A DNA stretch of 64,000 nucleotides from Bolinopsis microptera (Eukaryota; Ctenophora; Tentaculata; Lobata; Bolinopsidae), in contig NC_087072.1 in the NCBI RefSeq assembly GCF_026151205.1, positions 24,259,603-24,323,602 of the forward strand, read 5' to 3'. Under the pieces are notes generated by a model. That model was not told where the DNA came from. It ran no database searches and saw only the letters and a program-made list of their open reading frames with translations. This document shows, piece after piece, positions 1,943 to 61,528 of this stretch (position 1 is its first letter; each line of letters begins with the position of its first letter). Made by a program: the position numbers and the translations under genes.

Positions 1943-3787
1943 ATTTAGAAGGCCAGTTGGTAGATCACCGAACGGCTATAAGCCGGCTACTAACCGGCTA
2001 TAAGCCGGCTTATAGCCGGCTACAATTTTTATAGCCGGTTAGTAGCCGCTTACATTTCTGGTTGAGCGACGGCTATTAGCCGGTTATAAGCCTGCTATTA
2101 GCCGTTTTGGTATAAAAAGTGGTTATAAGCCGGCTATAAGCCGGCTATAAGCCGGTTATAAGATATTAACTCAACTACATCGTACTGAACGATAGTCAGG
2201 AGCCGGCTATAAGAAATTCAGTGAAAACGGCTATTAGCCGGTTATAAGCCGGCTATTAGCCGTTTAGGTATCGAAAGTGGTTATAAGCCGGCTATAAGCC
2301 GGTTATAAGATATTAACTCAGTTCAGTACGATGAAGTTAAGTTAATATCTTATAGCCGGCTTATAGCCGGCTTATAACCACTTTCGATACCTAAACGGCT
2401 AATAGCCGGCTTATAACCGGCTAATAGCCGTTTTCGTTGAATTTCTTATAGCCGGCTCCTGACTATCGTTCAGTACGATGAAGTTGAGTTAATATCTTAT
2501 AACCGGCTTATAGCCGGCTTATAGCCGGCTACAATTTTTATAGCCGGTTAGTAGCCGCTTACATTTCTGGTTGAGCGACGGCTATTAGCCGGTTATAAGC
2601 CTGCTATTAGCCGTTTTGGTATTAAAAGTGGTTATAAGCCGGCTATAAGCCGGCTATAAGCCGGCTATAAGCCGGTTATAAGATATTAACTCAACTACAT
2701 CGTACTGAACGATAGTCAGGAGCCGGCTATAAGAAATTCAGTGAAAACGGCTATTAGCCGGTTATAAGCCGGCTATTAGCCGTTTAGGTATCGAAAGTGG
2801 TTATAAGCCGGCTATAAGCCGGTTATAAGATATTAACTCAGTTCAGTACGATGAAGTTAAGTTAATATCTTATAGCCGGCTTATAGCCGGCTTATAACCA
2901 CTTTCGATACCTAAACGGCTAATAGCCGGCTTATAACCGGCTAATAGCCGTTTTCGTTGAATTTCTTATAGCCGGCTCCTGACTATCGTTCAGTACGATG
3001 AAGTTGAGTTAATATCTTATAACCGGCTTATAACCACTTTCGATACCTAAACGGCTAATAGCCGGTTATAAGCCTGCTATTAGCCGTTTTGGTATTAAAA
3101 GTGGTTATAAGCCGGCTATAAGCCGGCTATAAGCCGGTTATAAGATATTAACTCAACTACATCGTACTGAACGATAGTCAGGAGCCGGCTATAAGAAATT
3201 CAGTGAAAACGGCTATTAGCCGGTTATAAGCCGGCTATTAGCCGTTTAGGTATCGAAAGTGGTTATAAGCCGGCTATAAGCCGGTTATAAGATATTAACT
3301 CAGTTCAGTACGATGAAGTTAAGTTAATATCTTATAGCCGGCTTATAGCCGGCTTATAACCACTTTCGATACCTAAACGGCTAATAGCCGGCTTATAACC
3401 GGCTAATAGCCGTTTTCGTTGAATTTCTTATAGCCGGCTCCTGACTATCGTTCAGTACGATGAAGTTGAGTTAATATCTTATAACCGGCTTATAGCCGGC
3501 TTATAGCCGGCTTATAACCACTTTCGATACCTAAACGGCTAATAGCCGGCTTATAACCGGCTAATAGCCGTTTTCACTGAATTTCTTATAGCCGATACCT
3601 AAACGGCTAATAGCCGGCTTATAACCGGCTAATAGCCGTCGCTCAACAACAAATGTAAGCGGCTACTAACCGGCTATAAGCCGGCTTATAGCCGGCTATA
3701 CAAATTGTAGCCGGCTATAAGCCGGTTTATAGCCGGCTTATAACCGGCTTATAGCCGGTCGGTGATCTACCAATTTCCCATTTAGAA
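1943..3787. mobile_element. Foldback TIR element with 8-bp target-site duplication
   Basis: The 8-bp direct repeat ATTTAGAA (1943-1950 and 3780-3787) flanks an element at 1951-3779. Its ends are imperfect inverted repeats sharing TTGGTAGATCACCGA followed by CGGCTATAAGCCGG. The interior is almost wholly made of alternating direct and inverted copies of CGGCTATAAGC-type units. Higher-order blocks of roughly 470-510 bp recur (compare about 2013, 2525 and 3062), and each contains a palindromic centre near TTCAGTACGATGAAGTT. There is no open frame of interest. The 8-bp duplication fits hAT, P or Merlin-like transposition; the superfamily is not determined. Confidence 0.8.
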
Positions 3788-6700
3788 CATATCAGTCTAC
3801 TACAAACGATGAAGCAAGCAATTTTAGGTTAAAGTCGTTCATTAGGTTTGGTCGATACCTTGGTCGGCAAATTAGTACAATACCGACAAGCTTGGTCAAT
3901 ACATTTCTACCTCCTTAAAGTACTTTATTATAAAAACTGTTCTACTGAAAGCCTAAGTGTGGAACTGGAAGTAATTTAAAGCTTTTAAACGCACCCATTA
4001 ACATATATTTTTTGCTATTGTTTAAGGATGACGATCATTTCTTTCCTAAATTCCCTTTCGCACACAACAGAACAGAAGTGTAATTTTTAGATTAACTATA
4101 ACGATTAGTGAGATCCTATTGAAAATTATCCGTGAGAGCCATGTAATCAGTAACCAAGGAAACCATCGTCCTGATTTGATGATCACCCCCGTTAGAACAT
4201 ACAGTAGTAAATTAAAACCTATTTTTCATGTTATGCACATTATTTGTTTTGCATTTTTTTATTTAGTTTTACACTGTAAGAACGTTGCAAAGTACTCTTT
4301 TCAGGGTTTTGTGGGTGTGAGTACAGTTGACACCACATTTTCTGTATTCAGCAGGTTAATTGTTGTACTAGCGTATTGCATAATATCAGCTAAATTTGAA
4401 ACTTTTGCTGAGGCACCAGATAGAACCCGCAAATGGTGCAGTATTATTATTCCTCAGACTTATTACTGCAGCCATATTGCTCCTTATATTACTATTGGCT
4501 ATTCTCTGGTCACTTGTACTGTGGGAAGATCACGTGTTGTTTCTCCAATATGTTGATTAAATTCAGATATCCCGGATTATATGGATACAAAGTAAGATTT
4601 ACAACGTTGGTACTGTAAACTTTATTTGGCGATTTAGCGTACGTGTGGCAGGGATTACCCGCATATACCGTCATTTGATATCGATAGTAACGCGAGATTT
4701 TGTGTTCTGAGTAACAGCCAGAATTTCTATTGGAACATAATCATAAAATAGAATCACTGAATAGAAATATCCTCACATCATGTAGTATTAACATTGTTGA
4801 CAGATGTAATTTAAATTAGAGATCATATACAAATCATGCCCTTTTTGTCTATTTCAGCTGAATTAAGTCATATAAGTCTTCGAACAATCTTCAAGAAAAG
4901 ACATATTTCATCTGGCAATTAGCGGACTGGCGGCTAATTAATAACATGTTAACGTTATTCAATAAGTTGTTGTACAACTTAGAACGATTATATCGTTATA
5001 AGAGCTCATTTCAAAAGTTAAATTTAAAGCGCCTAGATTTAATTCAAGAGCGAAATGAACGTCGTGGGCTTACAGGTGTATAGTGTATAGTGGTTTTAAC
5101 AACACCGTATCAAGTACATGTTGCACTCTGTTCGATCTGACAACTTGACTCTGACCTCATCTTTTTGACTTTTCTTTTGAAATTTCAGCTTTTATTTTTG
5201 TTGGCTAAGTATAACAGATCTAAGTATAAGAGATCATACTTTTCCTTCTAAATACATCAAGCATGTGGTCGAATAGTCCATCATGTAGGTACTCATAGAA
5301 CCATACCATTGGTATCTTTTGTTGTTGATAAAATAAGCTATTGTACTTCGTGGTAGATATTTCAGACCTGAATATGTAACTCATTTACTAGATCATCTCC
5401 ATCTTTTTGTTGCTCAGCAACCACTTCAAGCATCAAGTTCCACATTAGTTGGTTGCAACGTGACTGCATTCTCAATTTCAAATTGTAACAATCCAAATCA
5501 TTCTTCAAATTATGCAGTGGCCCTGAATCCTCGCCACTATCCCAGAAAATCGTAATTTTCCACCTGCCGTGTGATACTGTGACTGTCTGGACACTGAAAG
5601 CTAGGGTAACATATTCTTTATCATAATCAGAGTGTACTGCAGAGAGATATGAATTGTGACTCCCTGTTAATATAATAATTCCCACTGCTCAGGCTAAATC
5701 CGGACTTCATGTTCCACGTTTTTAACACCCGTTTCGTATTACAGTCGATAAGAACCCCTAATCGCACCCAAACTGGCCTTCTCCATTCTTCTGTTTTGCG
5801 CGCCATTCAGCTCTACATATTTGACACCCTCGTGTTTTTGTCGATTGATCTGTTATATATAATAGCAATTTTTCCCGTAGGTACCCGTGATTATATTTGA
5901 TCTGATGTTGGTCAGATCATCGCATTGGGCCATACTAAATTACTAAATTATTAAATTACTAAATTTATACTCCATAGGACGGCATAACACATTATCACAG
6001 CGTTACTTTGATGGTAGGTACGTGTCTTACTCGATCTGATACCATTGTGGATGAACTCTAGGTTAATTCTTGCTCTGATTGAATCCTTCAGTCTAGTCAT
6101 TTCCAGACAGTCAGTAATATCTCCCGTGGTTGAAGGATTGAGGTTCATATTATAACTATATAATATATATTTCATACTGATAGTGGCTCCACCTTTCCTG
6201 ATATAAATCGAGCATGCGTCAAATGGCGAGCGTATAAAGGGTTCCCATACTTTAAGTTATACAATTTATTTCTTATAATTTGACTTATAATTATATTCAG
6301 TCGAGTTTGATGCTCAGAATTACGGATATCTTTGACGCGTTAAATCATACATACAATTTCATTGCTAAACCTTAAGAATATGATTTTTGAATTTCCATTC
6401 TATTTTTGACCATTTATACTGCATATTTTATGGTTAACATCACAACGAAATTGATTGTACAGTGAATGTAATTTTCGCCAAAATCTGGCGATTATTTACC
6501 CACCTTCCACCTTGAAAGATATTTCACTAAGGGTATACAAAAGATTGATGGTTTAAACTTTGATTAGTAATAGTTAGTTAGTTAAACTTAATAAGTTGCA
6601 AGGAGCAGTAACTTATATGGAGACGAAAGCCCTGTCTCAATCGTAACTACCCTGAGCTGGTAGTTCAGTGGTCAAACAAGTGGTTTACTTACTTATAGTT

Positions 6701-10462: not shown

Positions 10463-13400
10463 GTAAGAATTTTCTGAAGCCATGTAATCTAGACTAATTC
10501 GTTTATGTAATTTTGCAACACAATTTAATTAAACATCTCTATACTTCTGGAATGAAACAGACGTTTATAAATAAATTACAACAATATAATTAAATTAAGG
10601 ATCGTACATGTCTATAAAATACATGTCAACGAGCTTATTACTTCTATTCCTACGAAATATGCTTTCTAATGAGGTCTGATCGTCATCTTTTCACAGCGTT
10701 CGATGTCTGTGTGAAGGTAAATGACATCCTGTGGATCATTTACAGCATTACCTTAGTGTACAACCTTACAAAAACTACTACAAAAATATGCTTTCTCTAG
10801 ATTGTCTGTACTATAATAGCCATATTGATATGTCTGGAAAATTTGAAGAAAATCGTATATAGGAATAGGATCTGTAAAAAACACACCTGCGTTCCGCTGC
10901 GAACCACCGATTTGGAGATATTTTCTATTTTCTTGTGTTTGAAGTAATATTTTAAATTTTGCACATAGAAATTCGCCCAAAACTTGCACAGATTAACAGT
11001 CCTATAGCCATATTACTATCAGGAAAGTTTCAAGAAAATCCTATAGTAGTATCTCGAAATAATCGACTTTCATCAAATATTGTTGTAGGATCTCGACTTT
11101 CATCAAATATTGTTCCGCGGAATAAATGGAACGGAAAGTCCAACTGGATTTTGAAAACGTGATCTTTATTTATTATTTCATTACTGGGAGTGCGAGCATG
11201 AGACGACTTAATGAGAGGACAAAAACTGGTAAAATTGACCATCGCCAACTATATAATATAGATCATTAGTCATCTTTTAGGCATGGTGAAACAACGTACA
11301 TTATGCTTCAAAACAGGTATGTATCATGTTTTAATTGGGGTTTTCACATATAACTGATGAGATATAATTCAAACTGATGAGAATAATGAGATATAATTCA
11401 AACCTGTATAAATCGACTCTTTTATGGAACAGTGAACACCATTATTTAAGCTCTTCTGCTAGTCATACCATTATATACAGAGAGACAAATTGAAACGATG
11501 GGTTAAGTCAAACAATTGTTTCAATTGTTTGATTTAACCCGTCGTTCCAATTTGTATCTAGCTCTCGGCTTGCCGATTGAGCACTGCATCAGCATATGAC
11601 GCCGCCCACAACTATATACAGAAACATATCAGGAACTGTTCATAATTTTGTCTGCTCACAATTAGGGCTGTTCATTGTATTTGTTGCCAATTGTTTTATT
11701 TTGTTGCCGGGTAGGAAGACAAAGAAAGGGGAACAACTTCACCTCTGAAGGACAATCAATCTATGTGTAAAAATACAGTATTAAATACTGCACTTGCAGG
11801 CGTGTCGTCATAGGTTTGACTTTTGTTGTTTGATCTTAACACTACATCGACAATCGTTGTTCGATTAAATCGTTTTTTTTGTTTTGCTTTTAAAAAATAA
11901 TTAAATAAAACCAACACAATGGCGTAACGACCACCCCCGATACCCCACTATGCGGAGGGGGGGGGGACTTAAAAGAAAAAACGTTGGATAGGTGTTTAAT
12001 TATCCGGTCCACTAACGTTCAGTCGACGGGGCGGTCGTTACACCACTGAACTAACTAGTCGAGTAGTGACTTAGATCCAGATGGACTGTGTGTGGGCATG
12101 TTTTAAGATTCCAGAGGAACAGCACCCTCCATGTCAAGGCAGTGTCACTGACTTACTTAGTAGATGGAAGAGGCACGAAGACTATAAGAGGTCAGCATCA
12201 GATAAAATCATTCAAGTTTTATGACAGTTCCGACAGTTCTAACAACCAATTTTTATTTGTCAACATTTTGATAGATTTCCGAAAATTTGCTTCCGTTACT
12301 AAAGTCAAAGAACAAATGGTGTCTAATAGGGAGTCATGGTAACGGTATCTAATATGGGGGTTATGGTAACGGTATTCAATATGGGGGTCATGGTAACGGT
12401 ATCTAATATGGGGGTCAGGGTAACGGTATCTAATATGGAGGTCATGGTAACGGTATTTAATATGAGGGTCATGGTAACGGTATTTAATATGGGGGTCATG
12501 GTAACGATATCTAATATGGGGTCATGGTAACGGTATCTAATATGGGAGTCATGGTAACGGTATCTAATATGGGGGTCATGGTAACGGTATTTAATATGGG
12601 GGTCATAGTAACGGTATCTAATATGGAGGTCATGGTAACGGTATCTAATATGGGGGTCATGGTAACGGTATTTAATATGGGGGTCATGGTAACGGTATTT
12701 AATATGGGGGTCATGATAACGGTATTTAATATGGGGGTCATGGTAACGGTATTTAATATGGGGGTCATGGTAACGGTATCTAATATGGAGGTCATGGTAG
12801 CGGTATCTAATATGGGGGTCATGGTAACGGTATTTAATATGGGGGTCATGGTAACGGTATCTAATATGGGGGTCATGGTAACGGTATCTAATATGGGGGT
12901 CATGGTAACGGTATCTAATATGGGGGTCATGGTAACGGTATTTAATATGGGGAAGGGTAACGGTATCTAATATGGGGGTCATGGTAACGGTATCTAATAT
13001 GGGGGTCATGGTAACGGTATTTAATATGGGGGTTATGGTAACGGTATCTAATATGGAGGTCATGGTAACGGTATCTAATATGGGGGTCATGGTAACGGTA
13101 TTTAATATGGGGGTCATGGTAACGGTATCTAATATGGGGGTTATGGTAACGGTATCTAATATGGGGGTCATAGTAACGGTATCTAATATGGGGGTTATGG
13201 TAACGGTATTTAATATGGGGAAGGGTAACGGTATTTAATATGGGAGTCATGGTAACGGTATCTAATATGGGGGTCATGGTAACGGTATTTAATATGGGGG
13301 TCATGGTAACGATATCTAATATGGAGGTCATGGTAACGGTATTTAATATGGGGGTCATGGTAACGGTATTTAATATGGGGGTCATGGTAACGGTATTTAA

Positions 13401-16312
13401 TATGAGGGTCATGGTAACAGTATCTAATATGGGGGTCATGGTAACGGTATTTAATATGGGGGTCATGGTAACGGTATCTAATATGGGGGTCATGGTAACG
13501 GTATCTAATATGGGAGTCATGGTAACGGTATCTAATATGGAGGTCATGGTAACGGTATTGAATATGGGGGTCATGGTAACGCTATCTAATATGGGGGTCA
13601 TGGTAACGGTATCTAATATGGGAGTCATGGTAACAGTATCTAATACGGGGGTCATGGTAACGGTATTTAATATGGGGGTCATGGTAACGGTATTTAATAT
13701 GGGGGTCATGGTAACGGTATTTAATATGGGGGTCATGGTACCAGTATCTAATATGGGGGTCATGGTAACTTCCAAAAATCGTAATCCACCATAAACACCT
13801 TCCATTCCAAGTAAAGAAATGTTTTACAGAAAATGTATTGTCTTTCACTTCTTGAGATCGTATTACAGGCAGATCTACACAGTACGCAGCCAACAGTGTG
13901 CACGATTATAAAGTCAGAAATCCAATTTATACAATTACATGCTATTATTGATTGTTGGGTGATTAAAGCCCCTGTATCAATATTACATCATCATTTATCA
14001 GGAATAAGAGGCTCCAAGAGCAGTTGGATAAATCAAAAGCAAAAGTAGCGGAGCTAAATATAGCGGGAGTAGCAGTGGCGGGAGGAGGAGGAGGAGGAGG
14101 GGGAGGAGGAGGAGGAGGGGTGAGTCTGAATACTATTAGTGAAGAGACGGGAGGAGATGGGGATAAGACAGAGAAGAAATTACCTCGTGAGTTAAAACAT
14201 AGCTGTCAAATTGTACTGACACACTATATTAATTATGATTTAAATCGGAGTTATGTATACACATTGATAGTTTGTCTTTCGTGAACTGATAAACTTTTTG
14301 GGATGTTATATTATGATAGATTGAAGTTTTAAATAGCTTGTTTCTCAGCTGCGTCCAACAACAACAACAATGCCAGCACGCGACAGAGGGCCCAGGGTAT
14401 CTCGGGAGAAAGTAAGAAGGTTGAGGACATCTACATGAACCTTCAGGACTTTGAGAAGACAGATGAGTGAGTACATCGCTTAATAGTGCCTAATCATCTA
14501 ATTAGTCTAAACATTAAATAGAACTTTATCGATTCTACTAGAATAAGCAAGATCTTTTATCCTACACGAAATAATCGCGTATAGAAGAATCATTATTCTC
14601 CTATTCTTTCTTTGTCTCTTTTTCTTATATTTCATTGTATAACTTTCTCAGGGAAAAGAGCTCGATTGAAAAAGCATTGCTTGGAAATGTGTTCATGAAA
14701 AATCTAAAAGAATATCACATATCGGTAATAAAAACTTAAAATTTAACTCTTAGACTGTAATTTTTCTCTTTCAAAGCTTTCTCATTATATCAGTATATCC
14801 TATAATCTTTCGTATCACCCTCTCGTATTACACCATGTATAAGTATCCACCCGCCTAACCATCTTCCGCTTCACAGGAGATAGTGAGGTGCATGTATCCA
14901 GTTGATTATAATGAGGGTGACATGATTATTACTGAGGGCACCAGCGGAGATGTCCTATACGCTTTACAAGGTGATTTCATCACTCAAAACTAAAAGTGAA
15001 AGTGAAATTAGGATTGTTTCAAAATTCTTTTTTATCAGTTATCACTTATCACTTTCATATTATTTGTGGCGTCGGATTGTTTATCCCGCGATGATCTGTC
15101 TTTTGATTGATAAATATTAATTCTGGTTGGCCATTGAATTCGATCGACCTAATTTCCGGTAAAATGCCAATGATGTGGAATTCTTCATGACGAATAAGTA
15201 GACACAATTCTAATTTAATTTAATTTCTATACCATTAGAGGGACGAGTGGAGGTACAGAAAGAGGGCAAGAAGTTAGCCCAGTTCGGAGGTCCCACTGTA
15301 TTTGGAGAGCTTGCTATCCTCTATAAATGCCCTCGAACTGCATCAATTCTAGGTTAGTTGTGCTGTAGCTCTTTTGTTAGTTTGTTTTTTACATGGACCA
15401 TCTTACTATCTATAAAGCGAGACGATATATATATATTTATCTGTGCCATTTTACTGACACCACGGCATCAACTTTAACGCGAATTTCTGCAAAAACCGTC
15501 AAAGATATACAACTGAAACTTTTTTGACTAGGTCAAATGCTTTAATGGCCTCCAAATCAGCATGAAAAAATAAAACATTGGCCAAGAAATAGGAGTTTTA
15601 GAGCCCAAAATTTGGTACCACAAGTGGTGTCAAAAACGCGAATTAAATAGGTAATAATTGTTTTAGTCTCTTGAGTCTTGACGCCATTTTAGGGTTAGAC
15701 GGGTTCCTGCTAGTTATTATAAATGGGATTACTGCTGTATTATTAAAGTACTAGTGTAACCCGGCCTTCGGCCGGGATTTCACTGCCGCAGTTAAAAAGG
15801 GTAGGATAATTTACCCGTTGAGTCAAAACCCGCATTAGGTGAGCAATTCTATTCGGAGTGCCCTCACGTATCCGTCATCCGATGGTATCTTAAACAATAG
15901 TAATAGTATCTTAAACAATAATCAATAGAAATTAACCCTTAACACCACACCCGCCTATCATATTTGTGAACACGCATAACATTGTCGTATGAAAGTATGA
16001 ACTCTCTCTCTGCAGTCCAAACAGTGCCCCCTCGGCCTCCCCTAATAAGATTATAGTATAGACAGCGAATCTTGCACGGGTAACTCAATTACACTAATTA
16101 TGCAGCTACATATGCGAGCCCCGTAACTCTTACCGTTGTGCTCAAGCCATTTTATGTAACATTTGTGGTACAAAATCATCAATTAAACCACTTACCAACG
16201 ACCGATTTAAAAAACCTTTATCATTTAACTTCGTCAGAGTTTTGTCGGCACTTTACCGAAAAAATCAGTCCCGCAACTCTTACCGTTTTCTTGATTAAGC
16301 CGCTCGGAAATT

Positions 16313-16344
<32 letters not shown>

Positions 16345-19300
16345 AAAACACACATTCTGGGATTATTAGTTAGATTAATCTGATTTCGTATTTACTGCCT
16401 CGGCCATCTTTTGCCATTTTTTACACTGAAGTATAATACGAAATAAAATTGTACCGCGCTAATAATGTCATTTCACGGAACTACCAATGACGACGCTGTG
16501 TCTGCAACTGATATTTCTGCTGCTGTCTGCACGCGCTCGCGTTTGATTGAAGCAATTACCATTACTTAGTTAAACTTAATTAACCTCCTTCAGCCACGGT
16601 GCTGCATTCCCCACTTCCTGCTTCATTTGTAACCGCTCCTCCTTTTATGAGATTACATCGCCATCACCTACTTGAATACAGAGAGCTCGATTGTTGCCGC
16701 CCCATTCTTGTAAATTTAAGAGCTGTATTTATAATATAACAGAGCCATGGCGGCACTGCAACTTCATGTTGCTAATGCAGAATTAATTAAATTCGAATGG
16801 AGAGAATGCTGCTATTTACCATATTGCCATAGAAGTGCTTCTTTTGTTGATCGAGTGTACTTTAAATAGCTCTTAATATAATTATGAAAATGACATATAT
16901 GTCACACTGTTTGTATTGTTGCAAGTAGCTCTGCAAACATCTTTTAGAGCTTTAAAAACATTTCCGCGATATATATCTGTACATATACAATTAATAACCA
17001 CTATTTATGCCAGTGGTTTTTTATAACTGCCAGCCGTCATCCTGAAGCCGTACTATAGTTGTTCGCCTTATTTTGAAACTGGTCGTTTTGAGTGGCTATT
17101 TTTTAGCGCTTTAAACATTGTACTTTTCAAGAAAATTTGTGTGGTTTTTTGCAATCATTACCAACATAACAGCTTACTTCGGCTCAATTCATGCTCTAAT
17201 AACTTTGTAGTAAGATGCTCGTCACAAGACTACTCTTACTCGCAATAAAACCATCTGGTGCCCTCAAATTCAACGTATAATGGACCTTGGATTTTGAATA
17301 ATAGCTAAATTATGGTTTATTGTTGAGCCAGTACTATGACATCATTTGTACTTGTAGCCAAATACCTTTAATCAGAGATGATATCATTTTGTATTGTGCT
17401 TTGGGAGAACTAAATGATATCATTTGCATTCAGTAAACCTTAGATACGATGTGATATTAGTTTATGAAATGCTTTAGCAGAAGCAGAGGAAACTCTTTCA
17501 ACTCTATTCCAATTCTTGTTTTCTGATACTCATAGAGTCCATTCCGGTAGTCTTTAAACAATTTAAAGTTTTTGAGATCGAAACATGGTCGTTTCATTCC
17601 CCCTTCTCAAAGGTAAATACATCTAAACGCTATTTTCTTCAAAATTTGAGAATGACCTCATTTCTTGCAAACTGAATGATATTCGACATATGACAATAAA
17701 GTTTATTGCTGTCCCTAGGTACTGCACTACTACTTACTACCACATACTACCAGTTTCCACATACTGCAAAATGAGCTACTTTTCCAGCAAATGAGGCCAG
17801 TTATTTAATGTCATGTTTAAGTGTGGTATTTTCTCAGTGATTTCATCCAAAGCTAAAGTATGGGCAATATCTCGGGATACTTACCAAACTATCATGATGA
17901 AAGATGGGATTCAGAGACAGATGGATGCTCTCAAGGTTATAAATAAGTAAGTCATTCTAGTATATATTATTAGTTACCATTGAGCACGACTTAGTGAGGC
18001 TAGTGTTTTTAAACTTCTTTGGTAACTACTAGTTCTATTGAATCTGACCACTTTCTTCAGTGTCCAGTTGTTAAAGAAACTGCCAGAATCCATGAAAATG
18101 AAGTTATCGTCGAGTCTCGTCGAGGTAAATATTTATAATTAAACCATAATTTTTCCTAAAAATCTGAATACCGCTTTTTCTGTTAGCATAAGCTTGTATT
18201 TGATAACATAATTATCAGCCATCCGGCTAATTATGCACTTTAGGAAACGTACTCGAAAGGCGAATACATAATCAGACAAGGGTCGATAGGTGACACGTTC
18301 TTCATCCTTAACGATGGTGAAGTGCTGATAACAGTGATAAAAGAACCCGGCCAACCAGCAGTACCCATCAGGACTCTACAGAAAGGAGCTTACTTTGGGG
18401 AGGTCGCTCTCCTCAGGTCAGAAAATGTAGCTCTATGTTATTTATTGTTACTTAGCGTCTGCTGCCACGTCTATTGTTACGCATCTATTGTTACTTTACA
18501 TCTGTAAATTGTAATGTTTGCATACCAGATCCTTGGGTTCAATCTATTAGAATATTCAATTGTTAGAAAAAACAGTTTTGGCAAAAGTTGTTCGCATGTC
18601 ATGATTTTAATGTGAACGTAAAATATGTTGCCATTTTTCTTTTGTGTGGCCAAAATTAGACCCAGCGGAACTAAACTATTATAAATATCCACAACTTGGT
18701 AATGAGTTCTCTCAAGTACAGATAGAAGGATTGCTTTTGACAGAATCGCTGCATGCTGTCATTATCATGATCAAACTTTGAATGAAGCTTTTACTAATTG
18801 TATAGTATATACTGTATATCCGTGAGGCTGACAGTGTATAATTCCTAGAAATACCCTCTTGACTAAGCACAGTGGCTTATTTACTATTTTAATTTTATTA
18901 TGTGGTGAATAGACATTGAATAGGAAAGTAATAAAAGCCAAAGACTCAACGTTTAAAACATGTGATGGCTCACTTCCATTACTGTGCGATATGCTTAATT
19001 TACTTATAGTCGTGCGAAAAATTGGCTTGCATGTGCTTCATGAAACTAATAATTTATCAATTGATAATATTTGGTTTACATGATCATTGATCATGGCCTC
19101 CGATCTTTTTGCTTGGACAGATAATTTTAGGCGCCTTTTTGGATTAAAGAGTAGAGTTCATTCACTTGCTACTATTTCAAGGTTTTAACGTGTTTTTATT
19201 ATTGAAGTAACCTTGATATTTCGGCAGAATGGATCAATCCCGACCCACCTTAAGTGGGAAGCTTAGGTGGGAAGTTTAGGTGAGAAGTTTAGGTGGGAAG

Positions 19301-22300
19301 TTTAGGTGGGACTTAGGGGTGTAAGAATCTAGATGATGTTTTGGTAGATTTTATGTTTAGACGTAGGTTTAACGCTACGTCGATTGTTTGGACAGGGGAT
19401 AAGGAAGCACTGGTTGGTGTTTCTGTCAACTCCGCCAAGAACCCACATCCCAACTCTGTAGTTTCCTGTGATATTTACGCTTCCCAAATTTCGCCTCATC
19501 GATCTCGACAATTACACCAGGACCTCCGAGGGGGGTTGCGTTAGCGAGGAACCATGAGGAGACGAATCCTATCAGGGCAGCACGCCACACTCCGACGCTC
19601 TTCTCTGTGATACCGGTGTAGGCAGAGATTTCAACGTTGGTTAGGGATTTCGATGAGAAGTAGTAGATCAGGAGCATTAAGTGCTGGAATGGAAGGTTGG
19701 ATCCACTCAGGACACTTTTGGATCTGATGTTCCTTGTCTTCTTGCAGGGGCGTCCGCACTTCCAAATGTAGAGATCTGCTGATTTGGAGGCTGCACAAGG
19801 TGAGAGGACCATGGGACTATTGCAGGCATCACAGTTCTGGGTGGGTTTTAGAATCTGTTTGGTCATCAGGAACAATCTGGAACTGTCAACGGTTGCTGCT
19901 AGGGTCATTATCTCAAAGTGAAGTCCAAGTCTAGCTGGTTGGAAAGGCATGTTGATAGATTGTGGTTGCGGGGTAGGATGAAAATGATGATCTTAACGGT
20001 ATTTATACCATAGTGTGATTTAATGACGGGCGAAGTGAAGTGATTATCACCACAATCTGTCCTTGACAATATTCACAGACCAATCACACGATCCTCTAAG
20101 AGTCCCACTTAAACTTCCCACCTAAACGCTCGGACACTGAACTCAGCCATACGGTGAACTTCTAAGTTAAGAGTAATGTGATCCAAAGTCCCACCTAAAC
20201 TTCCCACCTAAACTTCCCACCTACACTTCCCACCTAAGCTTCCCACCTAAACTGCTCACCTAAACTGCTCACCTAAACTTCCCACCTAAACTTCCCACCT
20301 AAACTTCCCACCTAAACTTCCCACCTAAACTGCTCACCTAAACTGCTCACCTAAACTTCCCACCTAAACTTCCCACCTAAACTTCCCACTTAAGCTTCCC
20401 ACCTAAACTTCCCACCTAAACTTCCCACCTAAACTTCCCACCTAAACTGCTCACCTAAACTTCCCACCTAAACTTCCCACCTAAACTTCCCACCTAAACT
20501 TCCCACCTAAACTTCCCACCTAAACTTCCCACCTAAACTTCCCACCTAAACTGCTCACCTAAACTGCTCACCTAAACTTCCCACCTAAACTTCCCACCTA
20601 AACTTCCCACCTAAACTGATCACCTAAACTGCTCACCTAAACTTCCCACCTAAACTTCCCACCTAAACTTCCCACCTAAACTTCCCACCTAAACTTCCCA
20701 CCTAAACTTCCCACCTAAACTTCCCACCTAAACTTCCCACCTAAACTTCCCACCTAAACTGCTCACCTTAACTGCTCAGCTAAACTTCCCACTTAAGCTT
20801 CCCACCTAAACTTCCCACCTAAACTTCCCACCTAAACTTCCCACCTAAGCTTCCCACCTAAACTTCCCACCTAAACTTCTCACCTAAACTTCCCACCTAA
20901 ACTTCCCACCTAAGCTTCCCACCTAAACTTCCCACCTAAGCTTCCCACTTAAGCTTCCCACCTAAACTTCCCACCTAAACTTCCCACCTAAACTTCCCAC
21001 CTAAACTTCCCACCTAAACTTCCCACCTAAGCTTCCCACTTAAGCTTCCCACCTAAAATTCCCACCTAAACTTCCCACCTAAACTTCCCACCTAAACTTC
21101 CCACCTAAACTTCCCACCTAAGCTTCCCACTTAAGCTTCCCACCTAAACTCCCCACCTAAACTTCCCACCTAAACTTCCCACCTAAACTTCCCACCTAAA
21201 CTGCTCACCTAAACTGCTCACCTAAACTTCCCACTTAAGCTTCCCACCTAAACTTCCCACCTAAACTTCCCGCCTAAGCTTCCCACCTAAGCTTCCCACC
21301 TAAACTTCCCACCTAAACTTCCCACCTAAACTTCCCACCTAAGCTTCCCACTTAAGCTTCCCACCTAAACTTCCAACCTAAACTTCCCACCTAAACTTCC
21401 CACCTAAACTTCCCACCTAAAATTCCCACCTAAACTTCCCACCTAAGCTTCCCACTTAAGCTTCCCACCTAAAATTCCCACCTAAACTTCCCACCTAAAC
21501 TTCCCACCTAAACTTCCCACCTAAACTTCCCACCTAAGCTTCCCACTTAAGCTTCCCACCTAAAATTCCCACCTAAACTTCCCACCTAAACTTCCCACCT
21601 AAACTTCCCACCTAAACTGCTCACCTAAACTGCTCACCTAAACTTCCCACTTAAGCTTCCCACCTAAACTTCCCACCTAAACTTCCCACCTAAACTTCCC
21701 ACCTAAACTTCCCACCTAAACTTCCCACCTAAGCTTCCCACCTAAGCTTCCCACTTAAGCTTCCCACCTAAACTTCCCACCTAAACTTCCCACCTAAACT
21801 TCCGACCTAAACTTCCCACCTAAGCTTCCCACCTAAACTTTCCACCTAAGCTTCCCACTTAAGCTTCCCACCTAAGCTTCCCACCTAAACTTCCAACCTA
21901 AACTTCCCACCTAAACTTCCCACTTAAGCTTCCCACCTAAACTTCCCACCTAAACTTCCCACCTAAACTGCTCACCTAAACTTCCCACTTAAGCTTCCCA
22001 CCTAAACTTCCCATCTAAACTTCCCACCTAAACTTCCCACCTAAACTTCCCACCTAAACTTCCCACCTAAACTTCCCACCTAAACTTCCCACCTAAACTT
22101 CCCACCTAAACTTCCCACCTAAACTTCCCACCTAAACTGCTCACCTAAACTTCCCACTTAAACTTCCCACTTAAGCTTCCCACCTAAATTTCCCACCTTA
22201 ACTTCCCACCTAAACTTCCCACCTAAACTTCCCACCTAAACTTCCCACCTAAACTTCCCACCTAAGCTTCCCACCTAAGCTTCCCACTTAAGCTTCCCAC

Positions 22301-25300
22301 CTAAACTTCCCACCTAAACTTCCCACCTAAACTTCCCACCTAAACTTCCCACCTAAACTTCCCACCTAAACTTCCCACCTAAACTTCCCACCTAAACTTC
22401 CCACTTAAGCTTCCCACCTAAACTTCCCACCTAAACTTCCCACCTAAACTTCCCACCTAAACTTCCCACCTAAACTTCCCACCTAAACTTCCCACCTAAA
22501 CTTCCCACCTAAACTTCCCACCTAAACTTCCCACCTAAACTTCCCACCTAAACTTCCCACCTAAGCTTCCCACTTAAGCTTCCCACCTAAAATTCCCACC
22601 TAAACTCTCCACCTAAACTCTCCACCTAAACTTCCCACCTAAGCTTCCCACCTAAACTTCCCACCTAAACTTCCCACCTAAACTTCCCACCTAAACTTCC
22701 CACCTAAACTTCCCACCTAAACTTCCCACCTAAGCTTCCCACTGAAGCTTCCCACCTAAACTTCCCACCTAAAATTCCCACCTAAACTTCCCACCTAAAC
22801 TTCCCACCTAAGCTTCCCACTTAAGCTTCCCACCTAAACTTCCCACCTAAACTTCCCACCTAAATTTCCCACCTAAATTCCCACCTAAACTTCCCACCTA
22901 AGTTTCCCACTTAAGCTTCCCACCTAAGCTTCCCACCTAAACTTCCCACCTAAACTTCCCACCTTAACTTCCCACCTAAACTTCCCACTTAAGCTTCCCA
23001 CCTAAACTTCCCACCTAAACTTCCCACCTAAACTTCCCACCTAAACTTCCCACCTAAACTTCCCACCTAAACTTCCCACCTAAACTTCCCACCTAAACTT
23101 CCCACCTAAACTTCCTACCTTAGCTTCCCATTTAAGCTTCCCACCTAAACTTCCCACCTAAACTTCCCACCTAAACTTCCCACCTAAACTTCCCACCTAA
23201 ACTTCCCACCTAAACTTCCCACCTAAACTTCCCACCTAAACTTCCCACCTAAACTTCCCACCTTAGCTTCCCACTTAAGCTTCCCACTTAAACTTCCCAC
23301 CTAAACTTCCCACCTAAACTTCCCACCTAAACTGCTCACCTAAACTGCTCACCTAAACTTCCCACTTAAGCTTCCCACCTAAACTTCCCACCTAAACTTC
23401 CCACCTAAACTTCCCACCTAAACTTCCCACCTAAACTTCCCACCTAAACTTCCCACCTAAACTTCCCACCTAAACTGCTCACCTAAACTTCCCACTAAAA
23501 CTTCCCACTTAAGCTTCCCACCTAAACTTCCCACCTAAACTTCCCACCTAAACTTCCCACCTAAACTTCCCACCTTAACTTCCCACCTAAACTTCCCACC
23601 TAAACTTCCCACCTAAACTTCCCACCTAAACTTCCCACCTAAACTTCCCACCTAAGCTTCCCACTTAAGCTTCCCACCTAAACTTCCCACCTAAACTTCC
23701 CACCTAAACTTCCCACCTAAGCTTCCCACTTAAGCTTCCCACCTAAACTTCCCACCTAAACTTCCCACCTAAACTTCCCACCTAAACTTCCCACCTAAAC
23801 TTCCCACCTAAACTTCCCACCTAAGCTTCCCACTTAAGCTTCCCACTTAAGCTTCCCACTTAAGCTTCCCACTTAAGCTTCCCACTTAAGCTTCCCACTT
23901 AAGCTTCCCACTTAAGGTGGGTCGGGATTGTTCCATTCTACCGATATTTCCACGTCATGATTTTGTAGCTAAAGCAGATTATCTTTATTTGAAATGCATT
24001 GTTCAATGGGGAAGGGGGGGGGGAAGGGGGGCCAAGATCATAGAGCAGAGTTTTTTAAATGCACCTGAGGTCAAAACAGGTTTGAAGTTTATGGCTGGAC
24101 TGCCGAAAGCTGCATCATGTCCAAATTTGGTAAACTTTTGGGTATAAATGGTGAACATAACGCCGTAGGCGAATCATTTTTGATGATTTTGCTTGTGCAA
24201 AAGGCTTAGCTGAGCAATTTGGCACTAGGAATAATTTCCTGAAAATTTTGAAAATATACTTACAGTAATTCTAGGTCTCAAAAAGGGTGCAAAGAGGAGG
24301 AATCTTGAAACATGTTTTGAAAATTTGCTTTAAGAAATGAATTCTAGCAATGAGGAATGTAAGTTTGGACTACACTTTTCTTTAGCAGTAAAGCAATTTA
24401 GATAATGTAATGGCGGATAGGCCAAACTAGGCCAACAAATTTTGGCCCCTTTCCAAGATTTTATGGGGGTTGGTCGACCCCCTACCCCCGTCTTCCTACA
24501 CCCCTAAGTTAAATTACCCAGACATTGGAAAACTGAGAGTAACTCTAATAAAAAAGTTTCAGAAGGTTAACCACACAAAATAATTTCAGGGAGGAGCCGA
24601 GAACAGCGAATGTGATCGCCGTGACTGATAAGGTGGTCTGCTACGTGGTTGAGAGGGAAAAGTTCATGAAGCTGATCGGAGGGCTGGAGTTTGAGAAATA
24701 TAATGATAACGATATCGATATCGGGTGAGCTTTGCTATTACCCTTCATATAATGTACTTTGATCTTTTGAAGGCAGTTGTTAACCTGGTTATTCGAGTAA
24801 ATCTTGCCTATCGCTTCATTCTGCTTAACTATGTGTTGAGGTCAACTAGACTAACTACTTAACTAATTAAATACCACTTGGCACGTCTCCGTTATATGAA
24901 CTACAAGGAAATAACCCCACCCTCTCCAGTGACAAAGACAAAGATTCGGACCCCGAGCAAGAAGAGGAAAGAGAAAGATACGACAACTTCAAACTAACCG
25001 ATTTTAAGAGGGTGGCTACCTTAGGAGTAGGGGGATTCGGCAGAGTCGACCTGGTAAACTAAATCAATATTTAGATTACTTATACAATATACATACATTT
25101 ATTGTCGCGGAGACACATTTTGGGTCGCAGGATCTCAGCCAACAGGGTTGAATGTCCTGCATTGTAAAGTTGTAAGAAACAACTGCATATAAGCTCAACA
25201 ATCAACATGGATGAATGACCATAATTGACATTGTCCTCACTCAAGTGGAACGAATCGGACGTCTCCCGGTCTCCGGCGTAGAAAACATACATTTGCAATT

Positions 25301-36354: not shown

Positions 36355-37000
36355 ATTATTCCTGTCATCTTTAACATTGAATTAAAATGTTTTGAACTTA
36401 AATATACTTGCTGAACTACTTTCGATGAGTCTTAATGCCCGAAAACAATAAAGGGGTATAATAGTAAAGGGGGTATAATAGTAAATGGGGTATAATAGTA
36501 AAGGGGGTATAAAAGTAGAGGGGGTAAATAGTAAAGGGGGTCCGGGGTAAATAATAAAGGGGGTAAATATTATTGTGAATATAAGAGGCACGGTCATGCT
36601 TGCCAGCATTGTGATACTTCACGACAATCTGGGGTTCCAGAAAACCCACTTCCCGATACATGAAATTTTTTCCTGCAAAGTTTCAGATCTCTAACTTAAT
36701 TTTAACGTGGTTTTTAAGGCACCTGAATATGGCGATTTTGGGTTTTTTACCTAATTTCGTATAACATGCTGCAAGTGCATGGCGCGCGTATTTTGCGCAA
36801 ATTTCTTAAAAACCTCCACATAACTATTTATTATTCCTGTCATCTTTAACATTGAATTAGAATGTTTTTTACTTAAATATACCTGCTGAACTACTTTCGA
36901 TGAGTCTTAATGCCTGGAAAATAATAAAGAGGATATAATAGTATAGGGATTAGGGGGTAAATAATATTGTGAATATAACGGCAACGGTAATTTGATGTAT
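36355..37000. repeat. Direct duplication with GGGGTATAATAGTAAA tandem units
   Basis: A block starting TTATTCCTGTCATCTTTAAC occurs at about 36356 and again at about 36832 (slightly diverged), each leading into an 18-bp tandem stretch built on GGGGGTATAATAGTAAA. The segment 36600-36780 is also shared, inverted, with 60174-60360 (CACCTGAATATGGCGATTTT). Confidence 0.75.
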
Positions 37001-39933: not shown

Positions 39934-40546
39934 ACTCTACAGGTACCGCGACAATTGACCCCCCGACTATTGACCCCCCCGACAATTGACCCCTATGTAA
40001 TTACATTGGGGTCAATTGTCGCGAAATCTAGGGTTTAGTACGACAATTGACCCCCCATGTAATTACACTGGGGTCAAGTGATCGGGTTAGCGTCAGGATC
40101 CTGGGTTAGGGTTAGGGTCCTGGGTCAGGGTAAGGGTTAGGGTTAGGGTTAGGGTTAGGGTTAGGGTTAGGGTTAGGGTTAGGGTTAGGGTTAGGGTTAG
40201 GGTCAGAGTCCTGGGTCAGGGTCAGGGTCAGGGTTAGGGTCAGGGTCAGGGTCAGGGTCAGGGTCAGGGTCAGGGTCAGGGTCAGGGTCAGGGTCAGGGT
40301 CAGGGTCAGGGTCAGGGTCAGGGTCAGGGTCAGGGTCAGGGTCAGGGTCAGGGTCAGGGTCAGGGTCAGGGTCAGGGTCAGGGTCAGGGTCAGGTTCAGG
40401 GTCAGGGTCAGGGTCAGGGTCAGGGTCAGGGCCAGGGTCAGGGTCAGGGTCAGGGTCAGGGTCAATTGATTAAATTATATTGTCGGGGGGTCAATTGTCG
40501 GGGGGTCAATTGTCGGGGGGTCAATTGTCGCCAACCCACTCTACAG
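39934..40546. mobile_element. TIR element with 9-bp target duplication holding telomere-like repeats
   Basis: The 9-bp ACTCTACAG (39934-39942 and 40538-40546) flanks an element at 39943-40537. Its ends are inverted and share GCGACAATTGACCCC (left) and GGGGTCAATTGTCGC (right). Several extra copies of the CAATTGACCCCCCGA motif lie just inside each end. The middle is a hexamer array. A 9-bp duplication is characteristic of Mutator-like elements but is not proof. Confidence 0.78.
40135..40465. repeat. Interstitial TTAGGG array passing into GGGTCA array
   Basis: About 11 perfect TTAGGG units (40135-40200) are followed by about 40 units of GGGTCA to 40465, with a few variants. TTAGGG is the usual animal telomere repeat. 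GGGTCA differs from it by single steps and is also contained in the element's own end (GGGGTCAATTG). The G-rich strand could form quadruplexes. Confidence 0.92.
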
Positions 40547-40558: not shown

Positions 40559-40633
40559 ATCTACAAAACAGAGTACAAGTTACCGAGGGCGCCATCATGG
40601 CGCCCTCGGTAACTTGTACTCTGTTTTGTAGAT
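40559..40633. repeat. Perfect 37-bp-arm palindrome
   Basis: The arms 40559-40595 and 40597-40633 are exact reverse complements around a single C. They contain TACCGAGGGCGCCAT and its mirror. It lies within the right hAT-like end. Confidence 0.93.
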
Positions 40634-54821: not shown

Positions 54822-55038
54822 CCCCTTTTGGCGCCCCTCCCTAAAATTGAACAAATTAGGTGATTTTAGAGGATACACCAGTAAAATCTCTAAAAAAGTG
54901 TATTTCTAGAGTAAAACGCGCAGTTTTGCTAGTACCTCGTTAAGTTTTTCAAAATCGTCCCACATTCAAACGATGATTTTGCGCCCCCTAAGATGGCGCC
55001 CCACAGCGGGGTCAGCAGGGCCCTTTGTTACGCCACTG
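54822..55038 (+). mobile_element. hAT-like MITE, left end missing
   Basis: Matches the right 200 bp of the complete copy at 57834-58100, from GGCGCCCCTCCCTAAAATTG to the terminus TTGTTACGCCACTG. It lies just upstream of the LINE's truncated 5' end. Confidence 0.85.
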
Positions 55039-57610: not shown

Positions 57611-57833
57611 CTTACTATATATAAAGCGAGACAATTTATATGGATGGATCCATATCATTTAACTGACACCACAGTATCAACTTTAACGCGACTTTCCGCA
57701 AAAACCGTTAAAGATATACAACTAAAACTTTTTTGACTGGGTCAAATGCTTTAATGGCCTACAAATCAGCATGAAAAAATAAAAAATTGGCTAAGAAATA
57801 CGAGTTTTAGAGCCCAAAATTTGGACCCCCAAG

Positions 57834-58100
57834 CAGTGGCGTAACGTTGCCTGTTGGCGCCCCCTGCCGAAAAGGCGCCCCCTGTTGGCGCCCCTCCCTA
57901 AAATTGAACAAATTAGGCGATTTAAGAGGATACGCCGGTAAAATCTCTAAAAAAGTGTGTATCTAGAGCAAAACGCGCAGTTTTGCTAGTACTTTAGTTA
58001 AGTTTTCGAAATTGTCCCACATTCAAACGACGATTTGGCGCCCCCCTAAGACAGCGCCCCCCTGCACAGCGGGGTCAGCAGGGCCCTTCGTTACGCCACT
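57834..58100 (+). mobile_element. Complete hAT-like MITE, 267 bp
   Basis: Termini CAGTGGCGTAACG and CGTTACGCCACT are flanked by CCCCCAAG (57826-57833 and 58102-58109), an 8-bp target duplication (9 bp if the adjoining A is counted). The paralogous empty site is visible in family A copy 2, where GGGGGTCC (inverted) is continuous. The interior has GGCGCC-rich segments and an inverted CAAAACGCGCAGTTTTG. It is non-coding. Confidence 0.93.
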
Positions 58101-58359
58101 ACCCCCAAGTCGTGTCAAAAACGCGAATTTAACAGGTTATAATTATTTTAGTGGGGGGGTGTCACGTCCGTCTATGTCCGCTTGTCTCATAGAATCCAAA
58201 AAGGACAGGACATAGGCGGACATAGGCGGACATAGACGGACATAGGCGGACATAGGCGGACATAGACGGACATAGGCGGATATAGGCGGACATAGGCGGA
58301 CATTAATGGACACCTAAATTGCTAAATAAAATGTTCAATTTTGCTGTTATAGGGGGATC

Positions 58360-58908
58360 ATGTTTTTTGTCCGTTCTGTACCCTTTGGAAAAGTATGGTT
58401 GTCCGGTAAGAAAATTTCCCTTGAAAGAAAGCTGAGGTTATATGATGCTCAAGTTGTATCTGTATTGATTTACAACTCAAATAGTTGGAGTCCTAAGAAA
58501 GCAACCATGGAGAAAATGGACACACTCCATCGTAGACACCTCAGGTCCATTTTAAACATCAAATGGCCTAAAGGTATGATAAGCAACAAAGCATTGTATG
58601 AAAGGTGCAAAGTTGAAAAGTTATCCAAGCGTATTGAACACCAGCGGTGGAAGATGTTTGGACACATTCTCAGGAGTATGGAGAACACCCCAGCCCAAAC
58701 GGCTCTCTCTTTTGCTATTGAATCAGATAATTTATTCATTGGTAGATTGGGGAGACCTAGAATGAACTTGTTATCGGTTTTAAGAAGTGATTTAAGTAGT
58801 AGAAATTTGCAAATGGACAACTTGCATGAATTGAACGAAATTAGAGATATAGCTGCATGCAACAGATGTTGGGAAAATCTTTTTCAAGGGTACAGTTTAC
58901 CGCATTAA
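58360..58908 (+). pseudogene. LINE reverse-transcriptase C-terminal fragment carried in the TIR element
   Basis: The open frame of 182 codons contains LERKLRLYDAQVVSVLIYNS, MDTLHRRHLRSILNIKWP and RWKMFGHILRSMENTP. These are the thumb and C-terminal region typical of APE-type LINEs. The reverse-transcriptase core is absent. It resembles the fragment at 62036-62452 more than the intact LINE at 51786. Its uninterrupted frame inside a non-coding element is unusual. Confidence 0.8.
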
Positions 58909-59049
58909 GGTATTTTTAAGAATCATTTTTGTCGGTAAGATCCTGTTTTATAATAATAATAATGTACCCTATATTTTCAAAACGGACAAAAAATAGAGCG
59001 GACAAAAACGGACAAAAATGGACAAAAACGGAAAAAAATGGAAATAAAA

Positions 59050-60770
59050 TTTAGATGCTTCCTCCTCCTACTCTTCCTCCTCCTCCCCCTGGGTCTTCCT
59101 GATCTTCCTCAGTCCTCTTCCTCCTCCCCTCCTTAGTCCTCCTTCTACTCATCCTCCTCGTCCCCAGTCCTCCTCAACAGTCCTCCTCCTCCCCAGTCCT
59201 CCTCCTCCTCCTGAGTCCTCCTCCTGGGTCCTCCTCCTGGGTCCTTCTCCTCCTCTTCATCCTCCTCCTCTTCCTCCTCAGTCCTCAGTCCTCCTCCTCA
59301 TCCTTCTCCTCAGTCCTCCATCCTCCTCCTCAGTCCTCCCCCAGTCCCCCTCCTCCTCCTATTCAGTCCTCCTCCTCCTCCTCCTCCTTCTCAGTCCTCC
59401 TCAGTCCTCCTCCTCCTCCTCCTCCTCTTCCCTCTCAGTCATCCTCCTCAGCCATCCTCCTCAGTCCTCCTCAGTCCTCCTCAGTCCTCCTCCTCCTGGG
59501 TCCTCCTCCTCCTCTTCATCCTCCTCCTCTTCCTCCTGATCCTCGGTCCTCAGTCCTCCTCCTGGGTCCTCCTCCTCATCCTTCTCATCAGTCCTCCTCC
59601 TCCCCAGTCCTCTCCCAGCCCCCCTCCTTCTCCTCCTCCTATTCAGTCCTCTCCTCCTCCTCCTCCTCAGTTCTCCTCAGTCCTCCTTCTCATTTCTCCT
59701 AAGTCCTCCTCCTGAGTCCTCCTCCTGAGTCCTCCTCCTCTTCCTTCTGAGTCCTCCTCCTGAGTCCTCCTCCTCCTCCCTCTCAGTCATCCTCCTCAGT
59801 CATCCTCCTCAGCCATCCTCCCCAGCCATCCTCCTCAGCCATCCTCCTCAGTACTCCTCAGTCCTCCTCCTTCTCAGTCATCGTCAGTCCTCCTCCTCAG
59901 TCCTCCTCAGTCCTCCTCCTCCTACTGGGTCCTCCTCCTCCTCCTGGGTCCTCCTGGGTCTTCCTGATCCTCCCCAGTCCTCTTCCTCCTCCCCTCCTCA
60001 GTCCTCCTCCTACTCTTCCTCCTCGTCCTCAGTCCTCCTCATCAGTCCTCAACAGTTCTCCTCCTCCCCAGTCCTCCTCCTCCTCCTGGGGCCTCTTCCT
60101 GGGTCCTCCTCCTCCTGGGTCCTCCTCCTCCTGGGTCCTCCTTCTCCTCCTCAGTCCTTCTCCTCCAATTAAAATACTCGCCAGCACTGTTATACGAAAT
60201 TCGGTAAAAAACCCAAAATCGCCATATTCAGGTGCCTTAAAAACCATGTTAAAATTGAGTTAGAGATCTGAAATTTTTCAGGGCGTCTAGACGTTGACAA
60301 AATCGACTGCAAAAAAAGTTTCAGGTTTCAGGAGCATCGGGAAGTGGGTTTTTTAGAACCCCTGAGAGGGAGGAGGAGGAGGAAGATGACTGAGGAGGAG
60401 GAGAAGTCCTCCTCCTCCTCAGTCCTTTTCCTCCTCCTCCTCCCTCTCAGTCATCCTCCTCAGCCATCCTCCTCAGCCATCCTCCTCAGCCATCCTCCTC
60501 AGTCCTCCTCCTTCTCAGTCCTCCTGAGTCCTCCTCCTGAGTCCTCCTCCTCCTCAGTCATCCTCCTCAGTTCTCCTCCTCCTCCTCCTAGGTCCTCCTT
60601 CTGGGTCCTCCTCCTCCTCCTCCTCCTGGGTCTTCCTGATCCTTCTCCTCCCTCTCAGTCATCCTCCTCAGTCATCCTCCTCAGTCATCTTCCTCAGCCA
60701 TCCTCCTCAGCCATCCTTCTCAGCCATCCTCCTCAGTACTCTTCAGTACTCTTCAGTACTCTTCAGTCCT
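59050..60770. repeat. TCC/AGTCC pyrimidine-rich low-complexity tract
   Basis: Two blocks, about 59055-60165 and 60400-60770, of CCTCCTCAGTCCTCC-type repeats with strong strand asymmetry. They are separated by a unique segment shared, inverted, with 36600-36780. Serine/proline- or glutamate-rich open frames across it are repeat artefacts. Confidence 0.92.
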
Positions 60771-60774
60771 CAAA

Positions 60775-60945
60775 ATGTTTGTCCGCTAATGTCCACCAAT
60801 GTCCGCTAATGTCCACCAATGTCCATCCAAGTCCGCCAATGTCCGTCCGGGTCCGCCAACGTCCGTCCGAGTCCGCCAATGTCCGTCCGAGTCCGCCAAT
60901 GTCCGTCCGAGTCCGCCAATGTCCGTCCGTGTCCGCCAATGTCCC
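60775..60945. repeat. 20-bp array GTCCGCCAATGTCCGTCCGA
   Basis: Several units next to the right end of the TIR element. They contain the GTCCG core that also forms its terminal repeat. Confidence 0.85.
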
Positions 60946-61528
60946 AAAAAACACGTCCGTTGTCTCATAGAATCCAAAAAGGACAGGACATAGGCGGACA
61001 TAGACGGACATGACACCCCCCCTTTAGTCTCTTGAGTCTTGATACCATTTTAGGGTGATCATCGCCCTTAGAGGAGAAAGAGGATTTAAAGAATAAAAGT
61101 GCTGTAAAAAGCAGACTTAGACACAAATTTAGAGCCTCATTGAACCTACATCAATTATAGGGTGAGTGGAATGTACTACCCGTATGAAACCCTTAAAAAC
61201 TCAATCACAAAAATTTGTCATACTATGTCTGAAAAAGCTTGTTGGCACTTTAAGATTTCGGAGGAGCTGTAGATCTTTATGGAACCACTGCTTTTAGTTT
61301 TTACAAATTGCTATAAACCCAAGAATACCATACCCTTAACGATTTCATTGTAGTTCTTTCAGAATTAGTGGTTGCTGTTTAAAGATTTTTTGCTATGTTG
61401 CCTTCTTCAGTAGTATTGTCTTGGTGATCATGTGCACATGCACCCTTAACTTTTAGAATAAGAATAAGATGCTGTAAACTTATCTACATCCCATTTCTTG
61501 ACTACTGAGCTCTAAGCTGTTTTAATAC

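Follow-up and report, generated by a model that had tools for sequence, protein, structure and literature searches.

Iterated terminal motifs in four transposon families of the ctenophore Bolinopsis microptera, one of them Merlin-type by its coding remnant

Four elements with terminal inverted repeats (TIRs), here called E1 to E4, lie in a 64,000-nucleotide stretch of the genome of the ctenophore Bolinopsis microptera (NCBI RefSeq assembly GCF_026151205.1, contig NC_087072.1, forward strand; G000:C1:24259603-24323602 in our coordinates), which we refer to as the window, and all four carry tandem arrays. With moderate confidence, we interpret them as non-autonomous cut-and-paste transposons with inherited, mobile terminal iterons, whose copy number changes from copy to copy and which occasionally grow at one end. 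The case is built on E2, which, judging by its coding remnant, is a broken, non-autonomous transposon of the Merlin type, and on two coding Merlin families in the same genome that carry short runs of iterated motifs at the same place.

Results

Four multi-copy families

An earlier note on the window had taken these four places for TIR elements with target duplications; they are, each belongs to a multi-copy family, and their arrays are real (Table 1). The genome of 264.65 Mb was searched for family copies, and genome-wide counts of end patterns gave 168 matches for E1 (at most two mismatches), 961 for E3 and 787 for E4 (at most one mismatch each) and 15 for E2, while reversed-pattern controls gave 0-1. 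Among the 100 exact matches listed for each of E1, E3 and E4, neighbouring ends formed 39, 34 and 42 inward-facing pairs, respectively, at distances of up to 8 kb, none pointed apart, and same-strand neighbours numbered four for E1 and one for E4. In the same lists, the length between end patterns ranged over 243-3032 bp (E1), 238-2489 bp (E3) and 1199-6521 bp (E4), and this wide spread behind near-identical ends means that the interiors vary. Copies were taken from searches that scored 40 of 133 candidates for E1, 40 of 596 for E3 and 40 of 976 for E4; the loci read number 8 for E1, 10 for E2 (8 with E2 array units), 30 for E3, 30 for E4 (three also as longer stretches) and 12 for Merlin relatives, among which L082-L084 are E2 copies again.

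As a control, we looked for inverted repeats flanking 15 of the window's larger tandem arrays, up to 1.2 kb away. Long inverted arms (scores of 26-46) were found only at the arrays of E1-E4; among the other 11, nine had scores of 11-16 and two had no inverted repeat, a 6-bp duplication was seen in one and an 8-bp duplication in none (0/11). Most such minisatellites of the window thus lie outside detectable TIR elements, and those of E1-E4 inside. The script used here detected the duplications of E2 and E4 only, those of E1 and E3 having been established by separate reads.

Table 1. Features of the four elements in the window (positions are those of the window).
Feature	Position	Strand	Remarks
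E1 left target duplication ATTTAGAA	1943..1950	.	right copy 3780-3787
E1 foldback-like TIR element	1951..3779	+	tips GGCCAGTTGGTAGATCACCG / GGGAAATTGGTAGATCACCG; provisional Merlin-like miniature inverted-repeat transposable element (MITE)
E1 462-bp module, twice in tandem	2578..3494	.	contributes to the approximately twofold usual length of the window copy
E2 left target duplication GATATTTC	19215..19222	.	right copy 23943-23950
E2 non-autonomous element, Merlin-type by its remnant	19223..23942	-	coding remnant on - strand
E2 left 13-bp terminal array, 5 units	19247..19311	-
E2 188-residue open piece, Merlin-type transposase by similarity	19429..19992	-	coding similarity in other frames on to ~19317
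E2 right 13-bp terminal array, expanded, 286 units	20189..23915	+
E3 left target duplication ACTCTACA	39934..39941	.	right copy 40538-40545
E3 TIR element	39942..40537	+	tips GGTACCGCGACAATTG / GGGTTGGCGACAATTG; provisional Merlin-like MITE
E3 left 15-bp terminal units (CGACAATTGACCCCC)	39948..39995	+
E3 inner hexamer array	40084..40464	+	telomere-like GGGTTA on the left, GGGTCA adjoining the right boundary
E3 right 15-bp terminal units	40479..40531	-
E4 left target duplication TTTAGT	58147..58152	.	right copy 61023-61028
E4 TIR element	58153..61022	+	tip G-run + TGTCAYGTCCGTCTATGTCCGC
E4 left terminal-motif array GGACATAGRC	58208..58303	+	inverted relative to the tip
E4 insertion, window copy only among E4 loci compared	58384..58964	+	by eye, 3' end like that of a long interspersed nuclear element (LINE), AAT tail, GTACCCT duplication
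E4 TCC/CTCAG array	59060..60737	+	unrelated to the tips; main visible length variation; interrupted 60167-60400
E4 right array of GTCCGCCAAT-type units	60780..60944	+	9-13 units in six other complete copies

E2 and its coding Merlin relatives

The coding remnant of E2, a 188-residue open piece, shares 46-47% identity with longer frames at other sites of the genome, and both of the longer Merlin frames tested contain the PF12762 domain (DDE_Tnp_IS1595; 67.4 and 57.7 bits at a cut-off of 27), while the remnant itself has no match in Pfam and none in PDB. Merlin transposons are described as having TIRs that start with GG and target duplications of 8-9 bp (PMC8101967). In line with this, 14 of the 15 E2 ends found genome-wide begin with GG, 12 of them reading GGCAGAATGG, and 8-bp duplications flank all four complete copies read, including that of the window and that of L014 (the former found by script, the others by eye). 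The ends are laid out as GGCAGAATGGAACAATCCCGACC, followed by the 13-bp units. At G000:C10:3380207-3380322, two E2 tips face each other at a distance of 116 bp, with nothing but the ends of the element left, and in one further copy (L084, identical to copy L011) the open frame continues into a repeated peptide, GIFRGLGSRGS, which is apparently filler inside the element.

We found two coding Merlin families, M2 and M3, with tips GGCAGTYTACAAGAAGCCCGAC and GGCAGTATCGAGATAGCCCGACC and with open frames of 236-320 residues in the nine loci read (L085-L093). In all nine, the left tip (GGCAG...CCCGAC) is directly followed by a palindromic motif in 2-5 copies, which reads TGGTCCATGGACCA in one of the families and TGGTCCGCGGACCA in the second; 8-bp duplications are present in all three loci with both ends located, and pairs of M3 ends, counting exact tips only, enclose 18 or more of the 43 Merlin matches on C1-C5. 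Tip-adjacent iterated motifs are therefore present in all three related families (E2, M2 and M3), in a sequence that is specific to each, and their occurrence at low copy number in the coding relatives indicates that repeats of this kind normally belong to these elements.

Growth of the E2 arrays

E2 has 5 units on the left and 286 on the right in the window copy, 7 and 4 in L010, 6-7 and 5 in L013, and 25 and 6 in L014, and L015 has at least 114 on the right. Ordinary ends thus carry 4-7 units and three ends are expanded (L014 left, L015 right and window right), with a range of 4 to 286 units over the four complete copies. The dominant variants differ from one expanded array to the next and are nearly, not wholly, private: CCCCACC accounts for 9 of the 25 units of L014, for one in the window and for none in L015, TCTCACC for 6 of the 114 units of L015, for one in the window and for none in L014, and the window array has 32 of TCCCACTTAAGCT and 17 of GCTCACC among its 286 units, both absent from the arrays of L014 and L015. 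Within the window array, the unit pair C-B, a near match to the tip-adjacent pair of ordinary copies, occurs 13 times versus 2.6 times in shuffles (maximum 9), and there are 7 repeated ten-unit blocks versus 0.22 (maximum 4); this excess of repeated pairs and blocks argues that the array grew by the copying of short blocks.

The left ends differ in what follows the array. Those of L010, L013 and L016, three of the five read besides the window's, pass into inverted right subterminal sequence, which is the trace that template switching between inverted ends in gap repair would be expected to leave. Judged by eye and by how far the matches reach, the ends of L011 and L016 lead into sequence that the window copy lacks; that of L014 goes from the array straight into the interior, and the window end keeps the coding remnant without an inverted replacement. 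The earlier proposal of repair at transposon ends thus has repair-like footprints in E2 on its side, and the data do not separate slippage, unequal exchange and gap repair.

E1 and E3

E1 and E3 are probably Merlin-like too, as their tips begin with GG and their duplications measure 8 bp in E1 (exact in four of six complete copies) and 8 or 9 bp in E3 (16 of 27). The four elements had been called unrelated, and this holds for E4, which is distinct, and no longer for the others, with E2 assigned to the Merlin type and E1 and E3 sharing a GG tip and duplications of 8-9 bp.

The interior of E1 is made mostly of 11-bp CGGCTATAAGC-type units in both orientations, with inner units of the GGCTNNNAGCC types, likewise in both orientations, numbering 27-68 per copy over the six complete copies. 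Its left 200 bp match the inverted right end over positions 7-163 at 82%, in a stretch made of the 11-bp units, so that E1 has the long, internally repetitive TIRs of foldback-like elements; the ends of E2 are likewise arrays. With 1829 bp, the window copy is the longest of the six, versus 769-937 bp in the other five, and three inner marker sequences are present in all eight E1 loci read.

In E3, the terminal motif is found at both ends of all 27 complete copies, most of which share the layout of the inner array, with GGGTTA units mainly on the left and a GGGTCA block towards the right boundary that, in the window copy, runs into GGGTCAATTG, a part of the terminal motif. This GGGTTA/GGGTCA array is the largest of the element, has only GGGTCA in common with the terminal motif and holds most of the length variation: leaving out the GGGTCA inside the 15-bp terminal units, we counted from 14 (L067) to 103 (L072) hexamers over the 12 copies with exact 8-bp duplications. 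Together with the 4-286 units of E2, this bears out the expectation that array length varies among copies with intact duplications. Over the 27 copies, the exact duplication is 8 bp only in 12 and 9 bp in four, with a cross-locus control of 0/702 for the 8-bp duplication. While the values of 8, 8 and 6 bp first given for E1, E2 and E4 stand, we rejected the 9 bp given for E3, since the family gives 8 and sometimes 9, the ninth base matching the G that opens the tip only by chance.

Nine sites on C1 have at least six exact TTAGGG units, and at least five of them lie inside E3 copies; the copies located on C1 cover about 10.8 kb of its 26.2 Mb. In this assembly, such sites are missing from the initial 2.4 Mb and the final 0.6 Mb of C1. 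Five E3 copies with at least 70 GGGTCA units (L056-L060) sit in a 280-kb stretch close to one end of C2 (G000:C2:126-404 kb) and, given their common flanks, look like segmental copies and not separate insertions; another four (L055, L065, L066 and L077) have one and the same flank (..ACCGTCCTGAGCTT / CTAAGCTT..) and probably represent E3 inside another repeat. Just to the right of the window copy, at 40560-40632, is a 73-bp inverted repeat whose loop is very short.

E4

In E4, the TCC/CTCAG array has common flanks in the copies compared and carries most of the length variation. An exact 6-bp duplication was found in four of the seven complete copies scored (window, L046, L080 and L081) and a 5-bp one in L079, with none scored in L034 and L037; as Merlin elements have 8-9 bp, we rejected E4 as one of them. 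We also dismissed a connection of an E4 end, at C1:7186308, with a Merlin match at C1:7187719, as the match sits between two M3 tips. The G-run of the tip, between the duplication and TGTCAC, is 7 to 31 nucleotides long over the 30 loci (58153-58159 in the window; L019-L048). Two insertions set the window copy apart: the LINE-like one, whose reading frame has no Pfam match, and that at 60167-60400, which was not seen in the other copies compared and of which 101 bp match window positions 36672-36771 at 94% in the opposite orientation.

The claim of arrays built from the terminal motif needed correction for the largest arrays of E4, which is TCC/CTCAG, and of E3, which shares only GGGTCA. Copies of E1, E3 and E4 share internal sequence at differing lengths, so their arrays travel with the element, as the earlier note had allowed for. 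Its broader proposal, that one general process converts transposons into minisatellites here, found no support: repeats in low number are already present in the coding Merlin relatives, the variable arrays of E3 and E4 are of another kind, and E4, with its 6-bp duplication, near-fixed terminal array and variable TCC array, speaks against one process for all four.

Elsewhere in the window, at 12318-13769, a 27-bp array of 54 units has no TIR element detected around it in the 1.2-kb inverted-repeat search.

Discussion

Under the explanation we favour, the iterons at or just inside the tips would be an inherited part of the element that is moved along with it, and most likely they would serve as extra binding sites for the transposase. 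Because the units are tandem and inverted at both ends, their number could change by the copying of short blocks, whether through unequal exchange, slippage or a putative misaligned or template-switching repair of the excision gap. Most copies stay at few units, and occasionally one end of one copy grows alone, as in the window E2. We infer that such growth takes place after insertion; for the expanded E2 arrays, growth in place is the simplest reading, not a proven one. A bolder version, in which Merlin-type elements carry family-specific palindromic iterons that bind, and co-evolve with, the transposase, the number and sequence of iterons thus being an evolving component of the recognition system, and in which E3 is a main carrier spreading interstitial TTAGGG arrays along chromosomes, is possible and in our view doubtful.

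We think it rather unlikely that the iterons are neutral, that is, ordinary slippage minisatellites under little selection that bind nothing and resemble the tips only as a conserved part of a MITE. This would agree with the variable array of E4 (TCC) and most of the variation of E3 (hexamers) not being terminal motifs, and with 11 of the 15 window arrays tested lying in no detectable TIR element, but slippage alone does not predict that two coding Merlin families have different palindromes at the same place. If, instead, arrays grew only in excision repair, by abortive gap repair, the inverted replacement of the left end and the filler in E2 copies would be accounted for; the expanded window E2, however, keeps its left end with the coding remnant and has no footprint, and unequal exchange or slippage would yield the same array, which makes an exclusive role of excision repair improbable. 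We give least credence to the arrays being pre-existing satellites, unrelated to transposons, that contain the ends by chance or were captured by them. Four of the nine TTAGGG sites on C1 do lie outside the located E3 copies, in an E3 end list that is incomplete, and a one-time capture by E3 is possible; yet the arrays of E1 and E2 and the 15-bp arrays of E3 start inside the tip, occur in ordinary copies and are bounded by duplications in many of them, and for E1 and E2 capture was already disfavoured.

Several observations weigh against the inherited, mobile iterons that we favour. A transposase turned up in none of E1, E3 and E4, and the putative Merlin assignment of E1 and E3 therefore draws on the tip and the length of the duplication; a tblastn search with two Merlin open reading frames, run on the window and the loci collected, among which the longest copies do not figure, gave no match in the loci of these two. 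Exact duplications are missing from 2 of the 6 complete E1 copies and from 11 of the 27 of E3. The left array of E4 is near-fixed, with 9 units at 21 and 8 at the other 9 of the 30 best-matching loci, which were chosen by likeness to the window left end, a choice that favours constancy of this array. As each expanded E2 array was seen once, growth after insertion is indistinguishable from growth in an earlier donor. More generally, the loci read were those that matched the window copies best and no random sample, so that variation was sampled with bias, and the lengths of long arrays depend on the assembly and are possibly mis-sized.

The closest parallels are known from Drosophila. Galileo, of the P superfamily, likewise has long, internally repetitive TIRs whose unit number differs between the two ends of a copy, recruits internal sequence into its TIRs and has secondary transposase sites in the repeats (PMC3573991). 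It differs from the elements described here in its transposase superfamily, in its 7-bp duplications, a length that none of E1-E4 has (8, 8, 8 and 6 bp), and in its units, at most 3 of about 210 bp versus up to 286 of 10-15 bp (PMC3573991). In Tetris, a foldback element of Drosophila virilis, the unit has a segment in common with the outermost TIR and multiplies within the element, as here, into satellite arrays of up to 66 copies, but it is 220 bp long, a transposase was not found, and Tetris is a single element (PMC4079207). Published Merlin families resemble ours in GG tips, 8-bp duplications and, in Symbiodinium, tandem repeats that vary among copies, and Merlin matches have been reported from three ctenophore genomes; these repeats, however, are not described as copies of a terminal motif, and neither 'subterminal' nor 'palindrom' occurs in the main text of that report (PMC8101967). 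The Xenopus MITEs Xstir and miDNA4 also carry tandem repeats, in variable number in miDNA4, with units that, according to that account, derive from the interior or from a captured repeat and not from the tip (PMC12628747). In a literature search that reached few subscription papers, we found none that joins the Merlin superfamily with subterminal motifs, or Merlin with MITEs and with telomeric and tandem repeats. Three papers mention interstitial telomeric TTAGGG repeats as well as DNA transposons and their TIRs.

The terminal-iteron design is thus known from Galileo and Tetris, and it is found here in a family that is Merlin-type by its coding remnant and probably in two Merlin-like ones. The novelty lies in the parallel occurrence of this design in several families and in a mobile element that holds at least five of the nine long TTAGGG arrays on one chromosome. 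Low-copy seed arrays stand beside hugely expanded copies in several families of one genome, so that the origin of a satellite in a transposon tip can be traced, and the coding relatives supply a testable reason for the seeds, as putative binding sites. Should a large share of the interstitial TTAGGG DNA sit in E3, its arrays would not have to be read as signs of ancient chromosome fusions in this genome.

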